Source: Planctomycetota bacterium (lineage in GTDB: Bacteria; Planctomycetota; Brocadiia; JAJRTI01). From it: a stretch of DNA of 14,265 nt. The notes beneath the pieces were generated by a model. It did no database searches. It saw only the letters and a list, made by a program, of their open reading frames with translations, and was not told the DNA's origin. The DNA lies in NCBI GenBank assembly GCA_024278415.1, contig JAJRTI010000737.1:1-14265 (forward strand), written 5' to 3'. Below are positions 1,788 to 12,902 of this stretch, one piece after another (the first letter of the stretch is position 1; each line of letters begins with the position of its first letter). Position numbers and translations under genes: made by a program.

Positions 1788-2912
1788 CTACAGCCGGTTC
1801 GGCGTCTCGCCGCGTAGCTTCGCAAGCGCGAGCCGCGCTTTGCGTGGCACGTCGATACCGTACGGACACACGACCGCAGCCGCATCGTCGAGGAGCGCCT
1901 CCGCCTGCCAGCCTCGCTGCTGGAAGCGCGCCCGTGCCATGTCGCCGAGCGAGAACCAGTTGGCCAGCCGCAGCCGCAGCGCGTAGTCGGCCGGGTCGTG
2001 GGGCAGGTAATCGATCATCTGCCGGTCGCAATAGCCCTCCAGCCGGAACAGCTCCATGAGCGCGCCGGTGCATTGCCCGCACTGGCGGCACACGTAGTCG
2101 CCCAACTCAACAGCGTCACGCAGGATCGCCTCCCGCTCGTCTGCCCCGGCCGGGCCGCGGCGCACCGCGGCCGCGCACTCGCGCACGTGCGCGGGATCGT
2201 TCATGCCGCACACGAGCACGTCGGCCCCCACGCCGAGAGCGTAGCGCATCGCGCTCTCAACTGAGCGATACAGAAACCCATCACCCAACGGCTTCATGGC
2301 CGTGATGCCCACATTGTGTTCGCGCGCGAGCGGGAAGACCCGCTCGGTGATCTCGGGGAGATACATCAAGTCGAGGTAGTTGCACCAGATGAGGATAAGC
2401 GATAAGGGGAGCCGTTCGAGCGCCTCGACGTACATGGGTATGCGGTGGCTGCTCATGCCCATGCCGCGGACCAGCCCCTGGTCGATTGCTTGCTGCATGC
2501 CTTCGAGCGCTCCGCCCGGCGCGGTGATCTGGTCGAGCTTGTCCACGGTGCTGACGCCGTGGAAGAAGTAGAACTCGACGTGGTCGGTGCGCAGGAGCTT
2601 GAGCGTATCGTCGAGGTCGCGCAGCAGATCGTCCCGCGTGGCCGCTCCGCTCTTGCTGCACAGCACGACCTCGTCGCGGCGTCCCTCCAACGCGCGGCCC
2701 AGCTTGTCCTCGGACGCTCCCTTGCCGTAGCCGCGGGCGGTTTCAATGTAATTGCCGCCGGCCGCGAGGAATTCCTCGACGACCTGGGCGACGACCTCCG
2801 ACGATATCTCGACCTGGTGGAAGCCGCCGAGCGCGAGGCGGCTCACCTCGATGCCGGTGTCGCCTAGGGAGACAAGAGGAAGGTGGGCCGAATTAGCTGT
2901 GTCTTGCCGCAT
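1788..2912 (-). CDS. Aldo/keto reductase with C-terminal Fe-S-type Cys cluster
   Basis: This 374-residue cytoplasmic protein should be an NAD(P)H-dependent oxidoreductase acting on a carbonyl or sugar alcohol. The ATG at 2912 is preceded by GGAG about 6 nt upstream on the minus strand; upstream in-frame residues look non-coding. The AKR barrel covers about 15-250. The catalytic tetrad positions read E57 (in NYIETARGYG, where Asp is usual), Y62, K87 (CSKSG) and H118 (FFHG). The tail carries C275-x2-C278-x2-C281, C295 and C349-P350 (VVCPYGIDVP), matching the ferredoxin-like [4Fe-4S] extension known in one AKR subgroup, though with wider spacing than the compact form. It lies 114 nt downstream of the CBM9-like segment on the same strand, so co-transcription with the giant glycosidase gene is likely. 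The stop is TAG. Substrate unknown; sugar metabolism is inferred from context. Confidence 0.9.
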   Translation of the reverse strand: MRQDTANSAHLPLVSLGDTGIEVSRLALGGFHQVEISSEVVAQVVEEFLAAGGNYIETARGYGKGASEDKLGRALEGRRDEVVLCSKSGAATRDDLLRDLDDTLKLLRTDHVEFYFFHGVSTVDKLDQITAPGGALEGMQQAIDQGLVRGMGMSSHRIPMYVEALERLPLSLILIWCNYLDLMYLPEITERVFPLAREHNVGITAMKPLGDGFLYRSVESAMRYALGVGADVLVCGMNDPAHVRECAAAVRRGPAGADEREAILRDAVELGDYVCRQCGQCTGALMELFRLEGYCDRQMIDYLPHDPADYALRLRLANWFSLGDMARARFQQRGWQAEALLDDAAAVVCPYGIDVPRKARLALAKLRGETPNRL

Positions 2913-2934
2913 GGTTTCTCCGTTGCTGCCGTTA

Positions 2935-2946
2935 GTGTCATGACAC
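2935..2946. promoter_or_regulatory. 12-bp perfect palindrome upstream of the reductase gene
   Basis: GTGTCATGACAC is a perfect palindrome ending 23 nt upstream of the reductase ATG on the minus strand, in the 114-nt gap after the giant gene. It is a plausible operator for a dimeric repressor, but no convincing -35/-10 pair was found beside it. A 12-bp palindrome can occur by chance in a window this size. Confidence 0.3.
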
Positions 2947-3026
2947 GGCGGAAGTGTCGAACGCACCGCCGCCCTTTGGTAGTGAGGCCACCGTGGACCC
3001 ACCGCTCCTGGGCGTCGCGACCGAGG

Positions 3027-3632
3027 CTACTCAAACTTCAGCATCCCATAACGCTCGACATCGGACCACCTGCCGACCCGAGCCCAGTAGCTCTCGGGAG
3101 TCCGAAACTCCCTGAACCGACGCAGGAAGTTCGCGCGCCATTGCTCCCCCGGCTTGGGCGCCGGCGCCTCCAGCGAGGCGAACGGGATTGCGGCCTCCAC
3201 GATCCATTCGCCTTCCTTGACTCCGGTCGCCAAGGCCCAAGGCCTGTGGAGCAGATCGTCCTGGCCCACACCCCACTCGCCGGAGGCAGCGAAGTAGCGC
3301 ACGCCTCCTGCGTTCGTTGCGAACTGCCGGACCTGGCGCCCGCGGGGACTCAGGAACATGACGACCGTGTCGTCGTACTTCCTCAGCACCTGCACGGGGT
3401 TCTCAGGCGCCGCCGTCATCCTCAGGGCTTTCACGTCTGGGTCGGCCATGCGTAGGGCGATGTAGAGTGTCTTGTCGTCGTAGCACGCCTGCACCGACGT
3501 GTCCACCAGTGGCATGCCCTTGTACGCCCTGCCCGAAGCCACGCTCAGGAAGCGGTAACTCGGAGGTGCGTCCCGCCACACCGGCTCATCGAGCTTGCCA
3601 TCAATTGTCGGCGCCCGCCCCTTTGCGGACAC
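3027..3632 (-). CDS. CBM9-like carbohydrate-binding C-terminal segment (severed from the upstream glycosidase by a TAG)
   Basis: The reading gives 201 residues from a GTG at 3632, but the same frame is open without interruption back to the TAG at 3759-3761, so this is better read as the tail of one larger protein than as a separate gene. The start APTIDGKLDEPVW, the later ACYDDKTLYIALRMADPD and the closing strand regions are typical of the CBM9-like/DOMON sugar-binding fold (about 190 residues), which usually sits at a protein terminus to hold an enzyme on its polysaccharide. There is no signal peptide and no convincing Shine-Dalgarno at the GTG. If translated alone it would stay in the cytoplasm, which makes no sense for this module. 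The stop is TAG at 3027-3029. Confidence 0.65.
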   Translation of the reverse strand: MSAKGRAPTIDGKLDEPVWRDAPPSYRFLSVASGRAYKGMPLVDTSVQACYDDKTLYIALRMADPDVKALRMTAAPENPVQVLRKYDDTVVMFLSPRGRQVRQFATNAGGVRYFAASGEWGVGQDDLLHRPWALATGVKEGEWIVEAAIPFASLEAPAPKPGEQWRANFLRRFREFRTPESYWARVGRWSDVERYGMLKFE

Positions 3633-3758
3633 GGCCTGGAGCTGAGGTGTTTCCTTTGGGTCCAGATCGATCTGCGGCCTCCCAGGCAGACGCGCGGAGA
3701 ACGTGCTGGCTTGGCGCAGTATCTCCCGCAGTGTCCACAGGCGCCAGTGCGTCAGGTC

Positions 3759-3761
3759 CTA
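3759..3761 (-). other. In-frame amber codon interrupting a 1522-codon gene
   Basis: On the minus strand the frame reads ...KRYAAAW, TAG, DLTHWRLWTLREIL... and stays open for 243 further codons to the TAG at 3027-3029. The stop lies inside an apparent amphipathic helix that continues smoothly on the other side. CAG to TAG (Gln) or TGG to TAG (Trp) is a one-base explanation. The codon is followed by G and there is no CARYYA-type readthrough context. TAG also ends the reductase and the sigma-54 activator genes here, so it is an ordinary stop in this genome. Confidence 0.85.
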
Positions 3762-6700
3762 CCAAGCCGCGGCGTACCGCTTGGCTCCCAGCAGGCTGCG
3801 TCCGCTCTTGAGTTGCGCGCTGATGAATTCGCGGTCCTTCAGCGTAATCGCCAGAGCCGTGGCCCGGTCCGCCAGAAGCCTGCCCATGTCCGCGATGATC
3901 CATCGCATGTGTGCGAGGTCGGCGTCGCTGAGCGGCTCGTTGCCCCATCGGACGACCTTCACCTGTCCCTGCGCGCGGAACGCGGCCATGCCGAAAGGGC
4001 CGAGCGCTACAGGAACGACCGTGTTCGCTCCCTCGCTTCGCGTCTGTACGACGCGGCCATCGCAGGGAGTGGCCACCTGCGTCTTGCCGCTCAACACCAC
4101 GTGGCCGCGGATCGGCCAGTACCCTGGGTTGGCCACCGTGAACCACGTCTGCCCGTCCTTGACCAATACGCGGATCGCCAAGTTGTGCCGAAAGTCGGTC
4201 GTGCCGCCGACCGGCTCGAAGCGCTCCTTCGGCAGCGCCGTGATGGCCTTGGCGACTTGCCGGACCTGCTGCTCGCGGCTGTCGATGATGTTCACGTCGG
4301 TGAGGCCGAACACGAGGATGTCGGGGTCCGCGCCGATCAGGGCCTGGGTGTAGGATTCGAGAGCGTTGTCGCCATGGGCTTGGGAGATGAAGCGGCTCAC
4401 GTTCCGCGGGGTGGGCCAGTCGGGCGGCTTGATGTTGGCGACGCCGCCCTTGCCATCGAACCAGCCCGGCGTGCTCGTGGGTAGTTCGTGCCAGCAGGTG
4501 TCGAGCGACACGAGCCGATTTCGGGGATTGTCATAGTACGCGATCGCTTCGGGGCTCACGGCCTGCGGCCAGTAGTAGGGCTTCCCCTGGCTGTGCGGCC
4601 CGGTGGGGTAGATGTAGCGCCCGAACCAAATGTGCGGCTCGCCGCGCACCACGCTGGGGTCCATGCCCATTTCCCGAAAATAGTCCCGATACGACTTGCC
4701 GGACTCGTTCAGCCAATATCGGAGGGTTCCGCCGATGAGGTGGTATGCGTAGAGCACGTTCAGATCGCGCCGGTGCTCGTGGAGCACCTTCAGCGTCTTG
4801 GTCATGTACGTGCCCGTCTTGCGGCAGCGCCAGTCGATCCACTTGGCGCGCATTGCGTCGGACGTGAGGAATAGGTAGCGCTTCATGAACCGCTCCGGGT
4901 CGCGCGGTGCGGCGGGGACTTTGATGCCCGTGTCTTTCTCAAACGCGGCGATGGTCGCGTCGGAGTAGTCGTAGTCGAACGGCGCGGCGTGGGGTGCGCA
5001 GGGCCCTGGCCCCATGCCTCCGCCGTCGATGTACACGAAGTAGTAGATGCCTTTCCATGCGGGCGAGAACGCGAACTTCTCAGCCAAATCGTCGGCGACC
5101 TTCAGATACCCGGCCTCCACGGCTGGGTGGTTCGGGTTCGCGTTCCACCCGCCCTGCTTGCCGTCTTTGGCCACGAAGGACACGGTATCCGCTCCCTCCG
5201 CCACTTCCGCATCTCCGACCGCGTACTCGGCCCGGATGCTCTTGTGGCAGGTGTACTCGACCATGGAATACATCGCGATCCCGTTGCGCTCGAAGAAGCG
5301 CAGGGCCGTCTCCCGAATGTCCTGGAGCAGCCGGCCGTCTCCGGGCACGCGTTCGGGGGGAGTGTACGGAGTATTGTACTCATTGTATTGAAACGAGCCC
5401 ATCACGTGCAGGTTTTGGCCTGTGAAGCGCAGGTACGCGGTGTAGTTGCGGCACGCGTCGAAATGCCACCGCAGCCGCTGCGTGAACCGAGCCACCATGT
5501 CGTAGCCGAGTTTGTCGTAGCGAATCTGGTAGGCGTCCATGCCGTCCCCATCGCTGAACGTGCGGCCCAAGCTCCGAGCGCGTTCGGTGTGGATGCCGAA
5601 GAACCGCTGCCCACTGGTTTGGATCTTCAGCGCCGGCAGCTCCTTGACGCGGTAGATGCGAACCCGGGCCGCCGCGGCGCGCAGCCCCGGTTTCAAGTTC
5701 ACAATGTCCAGCGTATGGATCTCCGGGTCAGCCCAGTGCAACCACCGCATTTCGTGCATCTTGCCGTCCAGCGGGTACTTGCCTCCCGTCACCAGCGACG
5801 GCCCGTCCTCCGAGTTGTAATCGCGAGTGTACCGGGTCCGAAACGGGATCGGCGGCCTCTCCCGGCAGTCCCGCGCCGCGCTCGTGACCGACACGCCGAT
5901 CCAGCGCTCCGCGTCGTTCGGGTATTCGAGCACCATCAGATACCAGGAATAAGGATGCTTGAACTCGAAGCGATAGGAGAACAGCGCCCGGACCCGGTCG
6001 TCGGTCACTTCGCGATAGGCCAGCCCTTTCTGGCGCAGGATCCTCGGCGTGTCCACTCCCTCGGCCGGCTCCTTGTAGGGCTGGCGATGGGCCTTGGCCT
6101 CCACCCAGCGGTGCGGGTCCGCGGGGTCGGTGAAATCGATGACGTCTTCCAACTCCAAGTCCATGCCTTCCTCGTACGAATCCCCCGCGACCTCCTTCAT
6201 GGGCAGCCGGCCGACCACGATGAGCGGCTCCTCGAATCGGCGCTCGACCACCTTGCCATCGATGGCCATCTCCACTTCCAGCGTATACACGCCCGGGTCT
6301 CGCCTGCCCATGTCAATCGTATACACGAGCGAATGCGCGTTCGGCCTGGGCCGCGCCTGTCGCGCGATGCCGCGGCCCACTTCGGGCCGCTCGTTTTCCC
6401 GCTTGACTCGGCGCAGCACCCAGGCCATCGCCGGGCGATCTCGCAAGAGCCCCTCCGGCACGCGCACGTTCACCCGAACCGGCCGGGCGCTGTCGAAGTA
6501 GAGCTTCGGATCGTTTCCCGGGTTCTCCAGCAGCAGCCGGCCGTCATAGACCGGCCAGCGGCGCTTGGCGGTCCCCAAGTTCGGAGTAGCCAGCGTGGCT
6601 CGCTTCCAGTTGGAAGCATCGAACTCCACACTGGTCCAGCCCTTCTCCGCGGCGCCGGCCCCCTTCCAACTTGCGTCCGCGTCCAGTCGCGCCACGGTCC

Positions 6701-7595
6701 CGTCGGCCATGACCACTGTGCCCTGGAAGTAGACCAGTGGCGCGCCGCGATCGGTCCGCGACTGCTGTGCAAAAAGGCAGAGGACGTTCTTCTTGCCAGG
6801 CCTCAGATAGGGAGCGAGGTCCACCGGCCCCATGGGTTGGAAGGTATCCGCGGCCGGCACGCGCTGGCCGTTCAGCGTCACTATCGAGGTTCGAGAGACC
6901 TCCCCCACCGCGCGCCAGATCGTGCCCTCTGGCAGTTCGAACTCCTTGCGGAAACAGCCCTGACTGAGCGACTGTGTGATCCGGATCGAGGCGATCTCGA
7001 TGGTGCTCCCGGCGGCCCCGGTGATGGTGAGCCCGAATCCGTCGGCGCCGGCCCGGTAAGCCCTAAACCGCACGGTCTGCCAGTCCTTGCCCTTCACTAT
7101 CGCCTTGGCATGGGGCACGGCCCAGAACGCGATCTTCTCGTGGCTGTATCGCCCGGGCTTGGCGCTCCCGTTCGCCCAAAGCGCGAGCGTCCACTGGCTC
7201 GATAGCGCCGATTGCCGCACCTTCATCTCGATTTCATTCCATCCCGAGAACATCATCACCCGCTCCCGCTTCGTCTGCCGGCCGTCGTAGTTCCCCCACC
7301 CCACCACGACCTTGCTCCCCGCCGCGCGAAACCGCAGCCCTTCGTCTCCAAACGTCACGTCCCTCGCCTCTGGCGAGAAGTACGTGAAATTGCATGTCTC
7401 ATCTTTGCTGAATCGCCATGGCCTGCCCAAGCGATCCGCTGCGAGGTCGGTCGTCACCCGATACGTCTTGAGCTGCTGTGCGCGGTACAGATCCGAAGGC
7501 GCCACGCGCGGCAGCGGATTGATCGCGGCCGCAACGGTGGCAAACAGCCCCATGGCCAGCGCAAAAGACCATCGCCGGATTCCATCACGGTTCAT
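3759..7595 (-). CDS. Giant secreted multidomain glycoside-hydrolase-like protein (truncated by amber codon)
   Basis: The reading is 1278 residues to the TAG and 1522 codons in all if joined to the CBM9-like tail. The ATG at 7595 is fixed by a perfect AGGAGG 7 nt upstream and a signal peptide (RRWSFALAMGLFATVAAA, cut near 24/25). In order: a laminin-G-like beta-sandwich (about 60-205), a rhamnosidase-type galactose-binding-like domain (about 213-340, with LNGQRV and the DLAPYLRPGKKNVL stretch), further beta domains (about 350-650), a TIM-barrel region (about 665-1110) containing FVYIDGGGMGPG and a YSDATIAAFEKDTGIKVP block like GH10-like/GHL10 or GH42-type proteins, a small beta-sandwich (about 1115-1210) and a helical segment from about 1222 that runs through the stop. 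I cannot assign a GH family or name the catalytic acids. It probably acts outside the cytoplasm on a complex plant or algal glycan. Confidence 0.75.
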   Translation of the reverse strand: MNRDGIRRWSFALAMGLFATVAAAINPLPRVAPSDLYRAQQLKTYRVTTDLAADRLGRPWRFSKDETCNFTYFSPEARDVTFGDEGLRFRAAGSKVVVGWGNYDGRQTKRERVMMFSGWNEIEMKVRQSALSSQWTLALWANGSAKPGRYSHEKIAFWAVPHAKAIVKGKDWQTVRFRAYRAGADGFGLTITGAAGSTIEIASIRITQSLSQGCFRKEFELPEGTIWRAVGEVSRTSIVTLNGQRVPAADTFQPMGPVDLAPYLRPGKKNVLCLFAQQSRTDRGAPLVYFQGTVVMADGTVARLDADASWKGAGAAEKGWTSVEFDASNWKRATLATPNLGTAKRRWPVYDGRLLLENPGNDPKLYFDSARPVRVNVRVPEGLLRDRPAMAWVLRRVKRENERPEVGRGIARQARPRPNAHSLVYTIDMGRRDPGVYTLEVEMAIDGKVVERRFEEPLIVVGRLPMKEVAGDSYEEGMDLELEDVIDFTDPADPHRWVEAKAHRQPYKEPAEGVDTPRILRQKGLAYREVTDDRVRALFSYRFEFKHPYSWYLMVLEYPNDAERWIGVSVTSAARDCRERPPIPFRTRYTRDYNSEDGPSLVTGGKYPLDGKMHEMRWLHWADPEIHTLDIVNLKPGLRAAAARVRIYRVKELPALKIQTSGQRFFGIHTERARSLGRTFSDGDGMDAYQIRYDKLGYDMVARFTQRLRWHFDACRNYTAYLRFTGQNLHVMGSFQYNEYNTPYTPPERVPGDGRLLQDIRETALRFFERNGIAMYSMVEYTCHKSIRAEYAVGDAEVAEGADTVSFVAKDGKQGGWNANPNHPAVEAGYLKVADDLAEKFAFSPAWKGIYYFVYIDGGGMGPGPCAPHAAPFDYDYSDATIAAFEKDTGIKVPAAPRDPERFMKRYLFLTSDAMRAKWIDWRCRKTGTYMTKTLKVLHEHRRDLNVLYAYHLIGGTLRYWLNESGKSYRDYFREMGMDPSVVRGEPHIWFGRYIYPTGPHSQGKPYYWPQAVSPEAIAYYDNPRNRLVSLDTCWHELPTSTPGWFDGKGGVANIKPPDWPTPRNVSRFISQAHGDNALESYTQALIGADPDILVFGLTDVNIIDSREQQVRQVAKAITALPKERFEPVGGTTDFRHNLAIRVLVKDGQTWFTVANPGYWPIRGHVVLSGKTQVATPCDGRVVQTRSEGANTVVPVALGPFGMAAFRAQGQVKVVRWGNEPLSDADLAHMRWIIADMGRLLADRATALAITLKDREFISAQLKSGRSLLGAKRYAAAW

Positions 7596-8152: not shown

Positions 8153-8227
8153 TTCCAGCCGCGACAAGAGACTAAGCTTTACGCCCCCGCATCACCGTTC
8201 CCATTTTCCCTTACCGAGTGTTCCCCC

Positions 8228-9520
8228 ATGAAGATCACCATTATCGGCGCCGGCAGCGTGCAGTTCACGCGGCACTTTGTTAACGACGTGCTCCTCACGC
8301 CTGCGCTCGAAGGCTGCACCTTCTGCCTCATGGACACGGACCCGCCGCGGCTGAAACTTGCGGAGTCGTACGTGAGCCGGCTCATTGCAGAGAACCACGC
8401 GAAGGCCACGTGCATCGCCACGACCGACCGCGCCGCGGCCGTCCAGGACGCGTTTGCGGTGATCGTCACGATTCGCGTTGCGGAGAGCAAGACACTCCAA
8501 GCCAACTTCGCGATCCCGGCCCAATACGGCGTGCGCCAAACCGTAGCGGACACGGTCGGCCCGTCGGGCGTGATGTATGCCGTGCACAACGGCCAAGTGC
8601 TGCTCGACCTGTGCCGCGAGATGGAGACGCTCGCGCCGGACGGCGTGGTGCTGAACTACACCAACCCCATGGGCATCGTGACCGCGCTCTGTCTGCGCGG
8701 CTCGTCGACGCGGTTCGTGGGCCTCTGCCACAGCGTGCAGGAGGGCATCGAGTTCCTGTCCGGCGTGGCCGATGTGCCGAAAGAGGAAGTCGACTACATG
8801 TCTGCCGGGGTGAACCACTGCGCGTGGTTCCTCTGGCTGCGGCACAAGGGCAAGGATTTGTATCCGCTTCTCCACGAGCGCTCGAAAGACCCTGAGGTGT
8901 TTAAGCGCCAGTCGGTCAAGTGGGATCTCATGCAGAGCTTCGGCCTCTTCCCCACTGAAGGCCCCATCCACCACGCGGAGTATCATCCCTACTACGTGCG
9001 CCACGATTCCGAGATCGAGCGCCTCAACATCACGCGCGTCAACACTGGCATCGAGGAGTTCAAGACGGAACGCCGCGACGCGCGCATCGTGCAGTTCCAA
9101 GAGGTGATCGACAACCCGGACAGCTACAAGCTGACGCGCTCGCACGAGTATTGCGCGGACATCATCCGTGGCATGGCCACGGACGAGCCCATGCGCATTT
9201 TCGCGAGCGTCATGAACGAGGGCTACGTGGACAACCTGCCCCCGGAGGCCGCGGTCGAGGTGCCCATCTTCGTGGACCGCAACGGATTCCACCCCACGCC
9301 CGTTGGCTCGATTCCGACCGGTCCTGCGGCGCGAACAGCCGCCGTCGCGTACCACCAGGCCCTCGCCGCGGAAGGCATCCTAAACAAGAGCCTCGAGCAA
9401 CTGCGTCAGGCGATCCTCATCGACCCCAACACGAGCGCGACGCTCACGACTCCCCAAGCGCGGGCCATGTGCGAGGATCTGTTCGAGGCGAACGCGAAGT
9501 ATCTAGAGGGATATCGGTAA
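8228..9520 (+). CDS. GH4 family NAD- and Mn-dependent glycosidase, probably alpha-galactosidase type
   Basis: This 430-residue cytoplasmic enzyme has about the usual GH4 length. The family hydrolyses glycosides through NAD-assisted oxidation at C3, elimination and re-addition, and needs a divalent metal and reducing conditions. The ATG at 8228 was chosen because it begins directly with the NAD-binding strand MKITIIGAGS (GAGS 7-10); no Shine-Dalgarno is visible before it. Visible signatures include DTVGPSG (108-114), NYTNPMGIVT (143-152), the metal-site motif C167-H168-S169-V170 and GVNH with H197. In GH4 the CHSV form is associated with alpha-galactosidases of the MelA type, while CHE, CHG, CDMP and CNVP mark other specificities (from memory). 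It is transcribed divergently from the giant glycosidase across a complex control region, so the two may share regulation. The stop is TAA, and the gene converges with the flavoprotein gene. Confidence 0.9.
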   Translation: MKITIIGAGSVQFTRHFVNDVLLTPALEGCTFCLMDTDPPRLKLAESYVSRLIAENHAKATCIATTDRAAAVQDAFAVIVTIRVAESKTLQANFAIPAQYGVRQTVADTVGPSGVMYAVHNGQVLLDLCREMETLAPDGVVLNYTNPMGIVTALCLRGSSTRFVGLCHSVQEGIEFLSGVADVPKEEVDYMSAGVNHCAWFLWLRHKGKDLYPLLHERSKDPEVFKRQSVKWDLMQSFGLFPTEGPIHHAEYHPYYVRHDSEIERLNITRVNTGIEEFKTERRDARIVQFQEVIDNPDSYKLTRSHEYCADIIRGMATDEPMRIFASVMNEGYVDNLPPEAAVEVPIFVDRNGFHPTPVGSIPTGPAARTAAVAYHQALAAEGILNKSLEQLRQAILIDPNTSATLTTPQARAMCEDLFEANAKYLEGYR

Positions 9521-11417: not shown

Positions 11418-12902
11418 ATGGTCAACCACGCCAAACTTGACAAGACGTCTCGCGATTTCTTCGAGCTTGTAGTCCAAGCGGTCTTTCTCAACCCCTTCAG
11501 CGACGAGCGTGCGCGAGTGGACGCCCTCATCGCGGGGGACGACTCCGCGGCGAAGGAGGCCTCGTCCGAGCGTGTGCGCCGGCTCTTGCCGCGGGTGATC
11601 GAGCACGTCGAGCGCCTTCGCGCGCAGGGGATCCATAGGATCGACGTGTTCCCGGAGGCCGAGCAGGAGCTGGTCAAGTACGCGTTCCTCTTCGACCTCT
11701 TCCACCGGCTCATCGACGACTTCGACGCGCTCATCGAAGCGCAGAGGGCCAAGGGCGCCACGCCGCTGCCGGTGCCGTTCGCCAAGGACGCCCTTGCGGA
11801 GATCGAGTCCCGCGGCCTCCCGCACGACGAGGCGCTGCGCTACTTCGCGCTCTTCTACCAACTGCGCCGCGCGTTCTATTTCATCGAGAAGCGCCTCATC
11901 GGTTGCAGCCCATCCATGAAGGGCCTGCGCCGCGCGCTGTGGAACAACGTCTTCACCCACGACATCCGGCTCTACAACCGATATCTGTGGGACCGCATGG
12001 AGGACTTCGCAACGCTGCTGCTGGGCGAGACCGGCACGGGCAAGGGCGCGGGCGCCGCGGCCATCGGCCAGTCGGGCTTCATTCCCTTCAACGAGAGAAC
12101 CGGAGCGTTCGAAGCCAGCTTTACTCGCAACTTCGTGCCCATCAACTTGTCGCAGTACCCCGAGTCGCTCATCGAATCCGAGTTGTTTGGCCACCGCAAG
12201 GGAGCGTTCACCGGCGCGGTCGACGACCACGACGGCGTGTTCGCTCGCTGCTCGCGCTACGGCTCGCTTTTCCTCGACGAGATCGGAGAGGTGTCGATCC
12301 CCGTGCAGATCAAGCTGCTTCAGGTGATCCAAGACCGCACGTTCAGCCCAGTGGGCAGCCACGACCCGAAGCGGTTCGAAGGCCGCGTCATCGCCGCGAC
12401 CAACCGGTCCATCGACAAGCTGCGCGCGGAGGGCAAGTTCCGCGACGACTTCTTCTACCGCCTGTGTTCGGACATCATCGTGTTCCCGACGCTGCGCCAA
12501 CGCATCGCGGAGGATCCGCATGAACTGGACGACCTGATCGCGGCGGTCGTGCAACGCATGGTCGGCCAGCCGTCTCCGGAGCTGGTGAAGATGGTGCGCG
12601 CCACATTGGGCAAAGCGCTGCCGGCCAATTATCCTTGGCCGGGGAACGTGCGCGAGTTGGAACAGGCCGTGCGCCGTATCCTGCTCACCCAGTCGTACCA
12701 AGGCGACCTCCGCGCGGTGGCGCAGGACGCCACCGCCGCGCTGCTCCAAGAGATTGAGGCCGGAGCGATTGACGCGCAGGATCTGCTCTGCCGCTACTGC
12801 GCGATGCTTTACCAGCGCCACGGCACATACGAAGAAGTCGCGCGGCGCACGAAGCTCGACCGGCGCACAGCCAAGAAGTACGTCCAATCCGCGTTGGCTT
12901 AG
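11418..12902 (+). CDS. Sigma-54-dependent AAA+ transcriptional activator with unusual N-terminal region
   Basis: This 494-residue cytoplasmic protein would use ATP hydrolysis to open promoters bound by sigma-54 RNA polymerase. Seen in order: a mostly helical N-terminal region (1-195) with no receiver, GAF, PAS or CARF signature that I recognise; Walker A GETGTGKG (203-210), where the usual GKE is GKG; a roughly 12-residue insertion before ELFGH; the sigma-54 contact loop GAFTGA (262-267); Walker B SLFLDE (283-288); the arginine-finger region FRDDFFYRL (341-349); sensor II PWPGNVRELEQ (406-416); and a C-terminal Fis-like HTH (about 471-491, YEEVARRTKLDRRTAKKYVQ). All parts needed for activation are present. 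The insertion and the segment before Walker A resemble a subgroup I recall from myxobacteria and planctomycetes. No -24/-12 promoter was found in the window, so its target is unknown. The stop is TAG. Confidence 0.92.
   Translation: MVNHAKLDKTSRDFFELVVQAVFLNPFSDERARVDALIAGDDSAAKEASSERVRRLLPRVIEHVERLRAQGIHRIDVFPEAEQELVKYAFLFDLFHRLIDDFDALIEAQRAKGATPLPVPFAKDALAEIESRGLPHDEALRYFALFYQLRRAFYFIEKRLIGCSPSMKGLRRALWNNVFTHDIRLYNRYLWDRMEDFATLLLGETGTGKGAGAAAIGQSGFIPFNERTGAFEASFTRNFVPINLSQYPESLIESELFGHRKGAFTGAVDDHDGVFARCSRYGSLFLDEIGEVSIPVQIKLLQVIQDRTFSPVGSHDPKRFEGRVIAATNRSIDKLRAEGKFRDDFFYRLCSDIIVFPTLRQRIAEDPHELDDLIAAVVQRMVGQPSPELVKMVRATLGKALPANYPWPGNVRELEQAVRRILLTQSYQGDLRAVAQDATAALLQEIEAGAIDAQDLLCRYCAMLYQRHGTYEEVARRTKLDRRTAKKYVQSALA

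Follow-up and report, generated by a model that had tools for sequence, protein, structure and literature searches.

An interrupted glycosidase-like gene and its open tail

On the minus strand of the window (the whole stretch of DNA analysed, 14,265 nucleotides), the frame from 7595 to 3027 translates into 1278 residues, a TAG at 3761-3759, 243 more residues and a second TAG at 3029-3027. The residues around the internal stop read AKRYAAAW-stop-DLTHWRLWTLREIL, and the base directly 3′ of this TAG is G. Translation thus confirmed what an earlier sequence-only reading had given for the frame and its internal TAG, for the open tail of 243 codons and for the junction sequence; its figure of 1522 codons holds as a length if the internal TAG is counted along with the 1521 sense codons, the terminal TAG being extra. 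The features of the gene, 5′ to 3′, are as follows.

3762..7595, minus strand: head, the 1278 codons preceding the internal TAG (translation)
4233..5609, minus strand: TIM-barrel glycosidase-like domain, residues about 663-1121 (predicted structure)
3753..3776, minus strand: predicted helix holding stop position 1279, residues 1274-1281 (helix 635-642 of the model)
3759..3761, minus strand: internal TAG, residue 1279 (translation)
3699..3746, minus strand: last helix of the predicted bundle, residues 1284-1299, lost on truncation (helix 645-660 of the model)
3030..3647, minus strand: CBM9-like module, residues about 1317-1522 (Pfam CBM9_1 match)
3027..3029, minus strand: terminal TAG, the usual end of CBM9-bearing relatives (26 of 40 relatives end at most one residue away)

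The enzyme gene is flanked by a rhamnogalacturonan lyase family 11-like gene (2-1696) and a family 4 glycosidase gene (8201-9520), which suggests a plant-polysaccharide locus. An aldo/keto reductase gene (1788-3026) lies directly downstream in the same frame, which stays open from the terminal TAG up to the start of that gene. Further away is a sigma-54 activator (11418-12902) whose best NCBIfam match, the RNA repair regulator RtcR, reached 178 of 650 bits, far below the cut-off. A nitronate monooxygenase-like neighbour was found at E 1e-60 in 3 of 291 genomes from the phylum of an Armatimonadetes metagenome-assembled genome (MAG; 57-61% identity) and in 1 of 294 from that of a Planctomycetota MAG (51% identity).

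The tail stayed open in only 28 of 20,000 mononucleotide shuffles, its G+C content at third codon positions was close to that of the head (0.811 vs 0.845), and its G+C pattern across codon positions was coding-like. The open tail exceeds chance and is a true coding continuation of the head. It matched Pfam CBM9_1 (PF06452) at E 5.8e-8 with 33.3 bits, above the curated cut-off of 23.4, and its module has the CBM9 fold. In the database the locus is entered as a 1278-residue protein (P0003) and a separate 201-residue CBM9 protein (P0030). A search with the tail returned four proteins, namely P0030 itself, two distant ones and P0031, a 234-residue tail-only protein from a 938-base contig that shares 56% identity with the tail and is perhaps a contig-edge fragment.

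The head is ordered as a signal-peptide-like helix, a mostly beta N-terminal half, the predicted TIM-barrel domain and the start of a C-terminal helical bundle. In the model of residues 1-660, a helix at residues 4-23 is followed mostly by strands; by eye this helix looks like a signal peptide, and the enzyme is probably exported. Profile positions 211-337 matched PDB 3w5m, a putative rhamnosidase, at E 1.8e-14. No GH42-type family profile was found, the head matching nothing in Pfam at E 0.01 or in NCBIfam at E 0.001; at E 10, Pfam gave Glyco_hydro_2_N alone (E 0.15). A model built across the junction, in which the TAG was rendered as serine by choice, placed the stop inside a helix, as the sequence-only reading had supposed from the residues alone, with a pLDDT of 96 in model block 631-640 and 88 in block 641-650.

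Relatives at the position of the stop

A search with residues 900-1522 yielded at least 29 proteins, including the window's own P0003 (7996 candidates scored), and a profile search at E 1e-20 yielded at least 36 (7991 candidates scored). The best other matches listed, P0001 (1522 residues, 82% identity over the region) and P0002 (1523 residues, 71%), are both uninterrupted, in agreement with the earlier claims of one ancestral reading frame broken by a single stop and of a CBM9-like tail that belongs with the enzyme, the two parts being joined in these near relatives. P0003 itself represents one member from one contig. We aligned 40 relatives with the window (alignment A3, 41 rows), excluding P0026-P0029 and P0051, which match P0001 in the CBM9 part only, P0049, which matches residues 36-767 only, and P0031-P0033. 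All 40 have a residue in the TAG column (S in 24, A in 5, L in 5, H in 2, and Q, Y, F and R in one each). These relatives are predicted proteins, by construction free of internal stops, and one sharing the stop would be split into two shorter entries that could escape notice among the matches listed. None of the 40 stopped at the TAG position with a length of about 1280 residues, and the arrangement that the sequence-only reading had named as its refutation, homologues ending at residue 1278 beside a separate CBM9 gene, was absent among them. Downstream of the stop, W1287 is W in 39 of the 40. The homologues are thus uninterrupted, the stop is private to one lineage and the site is not a natural terminus, as for a nonsense mutation. 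One substitution suffices to turn a codon of the commonest residue in the column into TAG.

A scan of viral contigs for a further copy of this DNA gave 0 matches. At E 1e-100, the enzyme family occurred in 1 of 291 and 1 of 392 whole genomes, in each case the centre genome. Twelve stretches matching the head were present in one Armatimonadetes MAG and another 12 in one Planctomycetota MAG, several of them separate copies.

Some relatives have no CBM9 module. Five of the 40 fill at most 3 of the 192 CBM9 columns, gave no match to Pfam CBM9 and end 27 (P0018), 20 (P0037), 17 (P0043), 18 (P0045) and 21 (P0048) residues past the TAG column; three CBM9-less loci of one Armatimonadetes MAG (L004, L010 and L007) end 18, 22 and 19 residues past the aligned serine. 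The TGA that falls within the L007 match is no internal stop but that protein's own end, 19 residues past the aligned site. The segment following the TAG site, with the tryptophan of W1287, is kept in all eight. P0018 falls next to the clade that unites the window with P0001 and P0002 in a tree computed from the head with FastTree, without support values. Other relatives run longer, such as P0039 (1609 residues), whose residues 1450-1591 form a malectin domain. Judging from these sequences, a CBM9-less enzyme exists in the family, and the cases seen retain the start of the predicted last helix, a part cut off by the stop in the window. We rejected the TAG as a natural domain boundary, because the CBM9-less relatives end at least 17 residues beyond its column.

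To P0001, identity was 81.1% in the tail (243 residues) vs 82.9% in the head (residues 26-1278), with no indels in the tail; to P0002, it was 67.9% and 72.8%, respectively. Where 12 relatives agreed at a consensus of 90% or more, the window branch had changed at 0 of 72 positions in the tail and 4 of 400 in the head. Such intact conserved positions in the tail indicate a young change, a sequence error or ongoing translation. Over all columns, the ratio of changes on the window branch to those on the P0001 branch was 15:13 for the tail, compared with 48:73 for the head (Fisher p 0.21), and at a 50% threshold the per-site rate of the window was higher in the tail with p 0.03, an uncorrected value from one of five thresholds. 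Taking P0002, P0004, P0005 and P0006 in turn as the outgroup, the ratio was 14:8, 12:10, 14:11 and 16:6 in the tail, and 55:72, 52:60, 41:54 and 45:53 in the head. The tail thus leans weakly and consistently towards relaxed constraint; such loosening would imply a slightly older stop.

Origin of the internal TAG

We favour as probable a single recent point substitution, real in the organism, that placed an in-frame amber codon in a gene formerly encoding a polypeptide of about 1522 residues and truncates the enzyme. The ancestral product would have been a glycosidase-like enzyme, probably exported, that carried CBM9 at its C terminus. Translation most likely ends at residue 1278, giving a product that would have neither the CBM9 module nor the last helix of the bundle between barrel and CBM9, and the tail would be left untranslated or nearly so. 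The allele would be young, or a polymorphism within the species. Among the origins that the sequence-only reading had listed (mutation, polymorphism, assembly error, readthrough, suppression), a recent nonsense change or a sequence error is favoured; the stop looks like one of these ordinary events rather than a new mechanism.

The main rival, in our estimate unlikely, is a one-base error in the contig, the gene being intact in the organism. The tail is conserved about as well as the head and entirely in frame, and the allele is known from one contig only, both as expected for a consensus error; but no other damage was seen, the tail having no indel relative to P0001 and the other six main frames of the contig being open, as judged without comparison to relatives.

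Functional readthrough, in which some ribosomes would pass the TAG to make the CBM9-bearing enzyme while the rest yield the short form, appears improbable. Continued translation would also explain the persisting conservation of the tail, and the cited part of PMC7918605 describes in-frame stops of bacteria that show signs of purifying selection. Moreover, a G follows the TAG, and in E. coli reporters this base increased readthrough according to the portion of PMC11126739 drawn on here, so that some background leakage at the TAG is plausible. However, all 40 aligned relatives continue through the site, no tRNA genes were found within the window, and none of three RNA folds tested around or after the stop was more stable than shuffles (z 0.81, 0.83 and 1.35); in the same portion of the E. 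coli study, structure failed to predict readthrough. The idea that leaky termination yields two secreted forms in an adjustable ratio, one free and one bound to polysaccharide through CBM9, is more doubtful still. The sequence-only reading had raised two such useful forms, and the proposal is weakened because the short form would have no last-helix segment, which CBM9-less relatives keep. If readthrough were true, the gene would show a bacterium setting the dose of a carbohydrate-binding module by termination; literature searches combining readthrough or stops with binding modules listed a general paper only. As things stand, this is one more in-frame stop on a single contig, and it matters little.

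A fission into two functional genes, in which the tail would have a translation start of its own, we regard as highly doubtful. Among 17 start-like codons inside the tail, the GTG at 3632 precedes the domain and would begin it nearly complete, and P0031 is listed as a tail-only relative. This GTG, however, has none of the five scanned SD-like tetramers at a suitable distance; only 2 of the 17 starts have one, both inside the domain (residues 1364 and 1466), and the tail alone would have no export signal. Finally, the reading of TAG as a sense codon, whether through recoding, pyrrolysine or a strong amber suppressor, is very unlikely, bordering on negligible, because TAG ends three of the seven contig genes, with head and tail taken as one gene (TAA and TGA end two each): the open frame beyond the TAG is its sole support, whereas genome-wide amber recoding would leave TAG unused as a terminator, the gene's own terminal TAG sits where the majority of relatives end and as a sense codon would append 412 codons running through the aldo/keto reductase gene, two other contig genes terminate in TAG, and none of the remaining six main frames calls for an internal TAG.

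Comparison with known systems

The lone TAG in an otherwise conserved frame resembles the in-frame stops treated in PMC7918605, which, in the part of that study cited here, are widespread in bacterial genes and persist for a short evolutionary time. Carbohydrate metabolism, the category of the present gene, is among the abundant ones in that part of the study. The retained stops it describes are common to two or more species, whereas the stop described here is known from a single contig. As for the enzyme, the predicted barrel at residues about 663-1121 would be similar in fold to GH42/GH35-type barrel glycosidases and to the PgaB glycoside hydrolase domain (PDB 5xb7, 8faa and 6au1), with about 9-13% sequence identity to these. 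CBM9 is known from xylanases such as Thermotoga maritima Xyn10A (PDB 1i82); here, by contrast, the CBM9-like module is attached to a barrel family that matches neither Pfam nor NCBIfam profiles.
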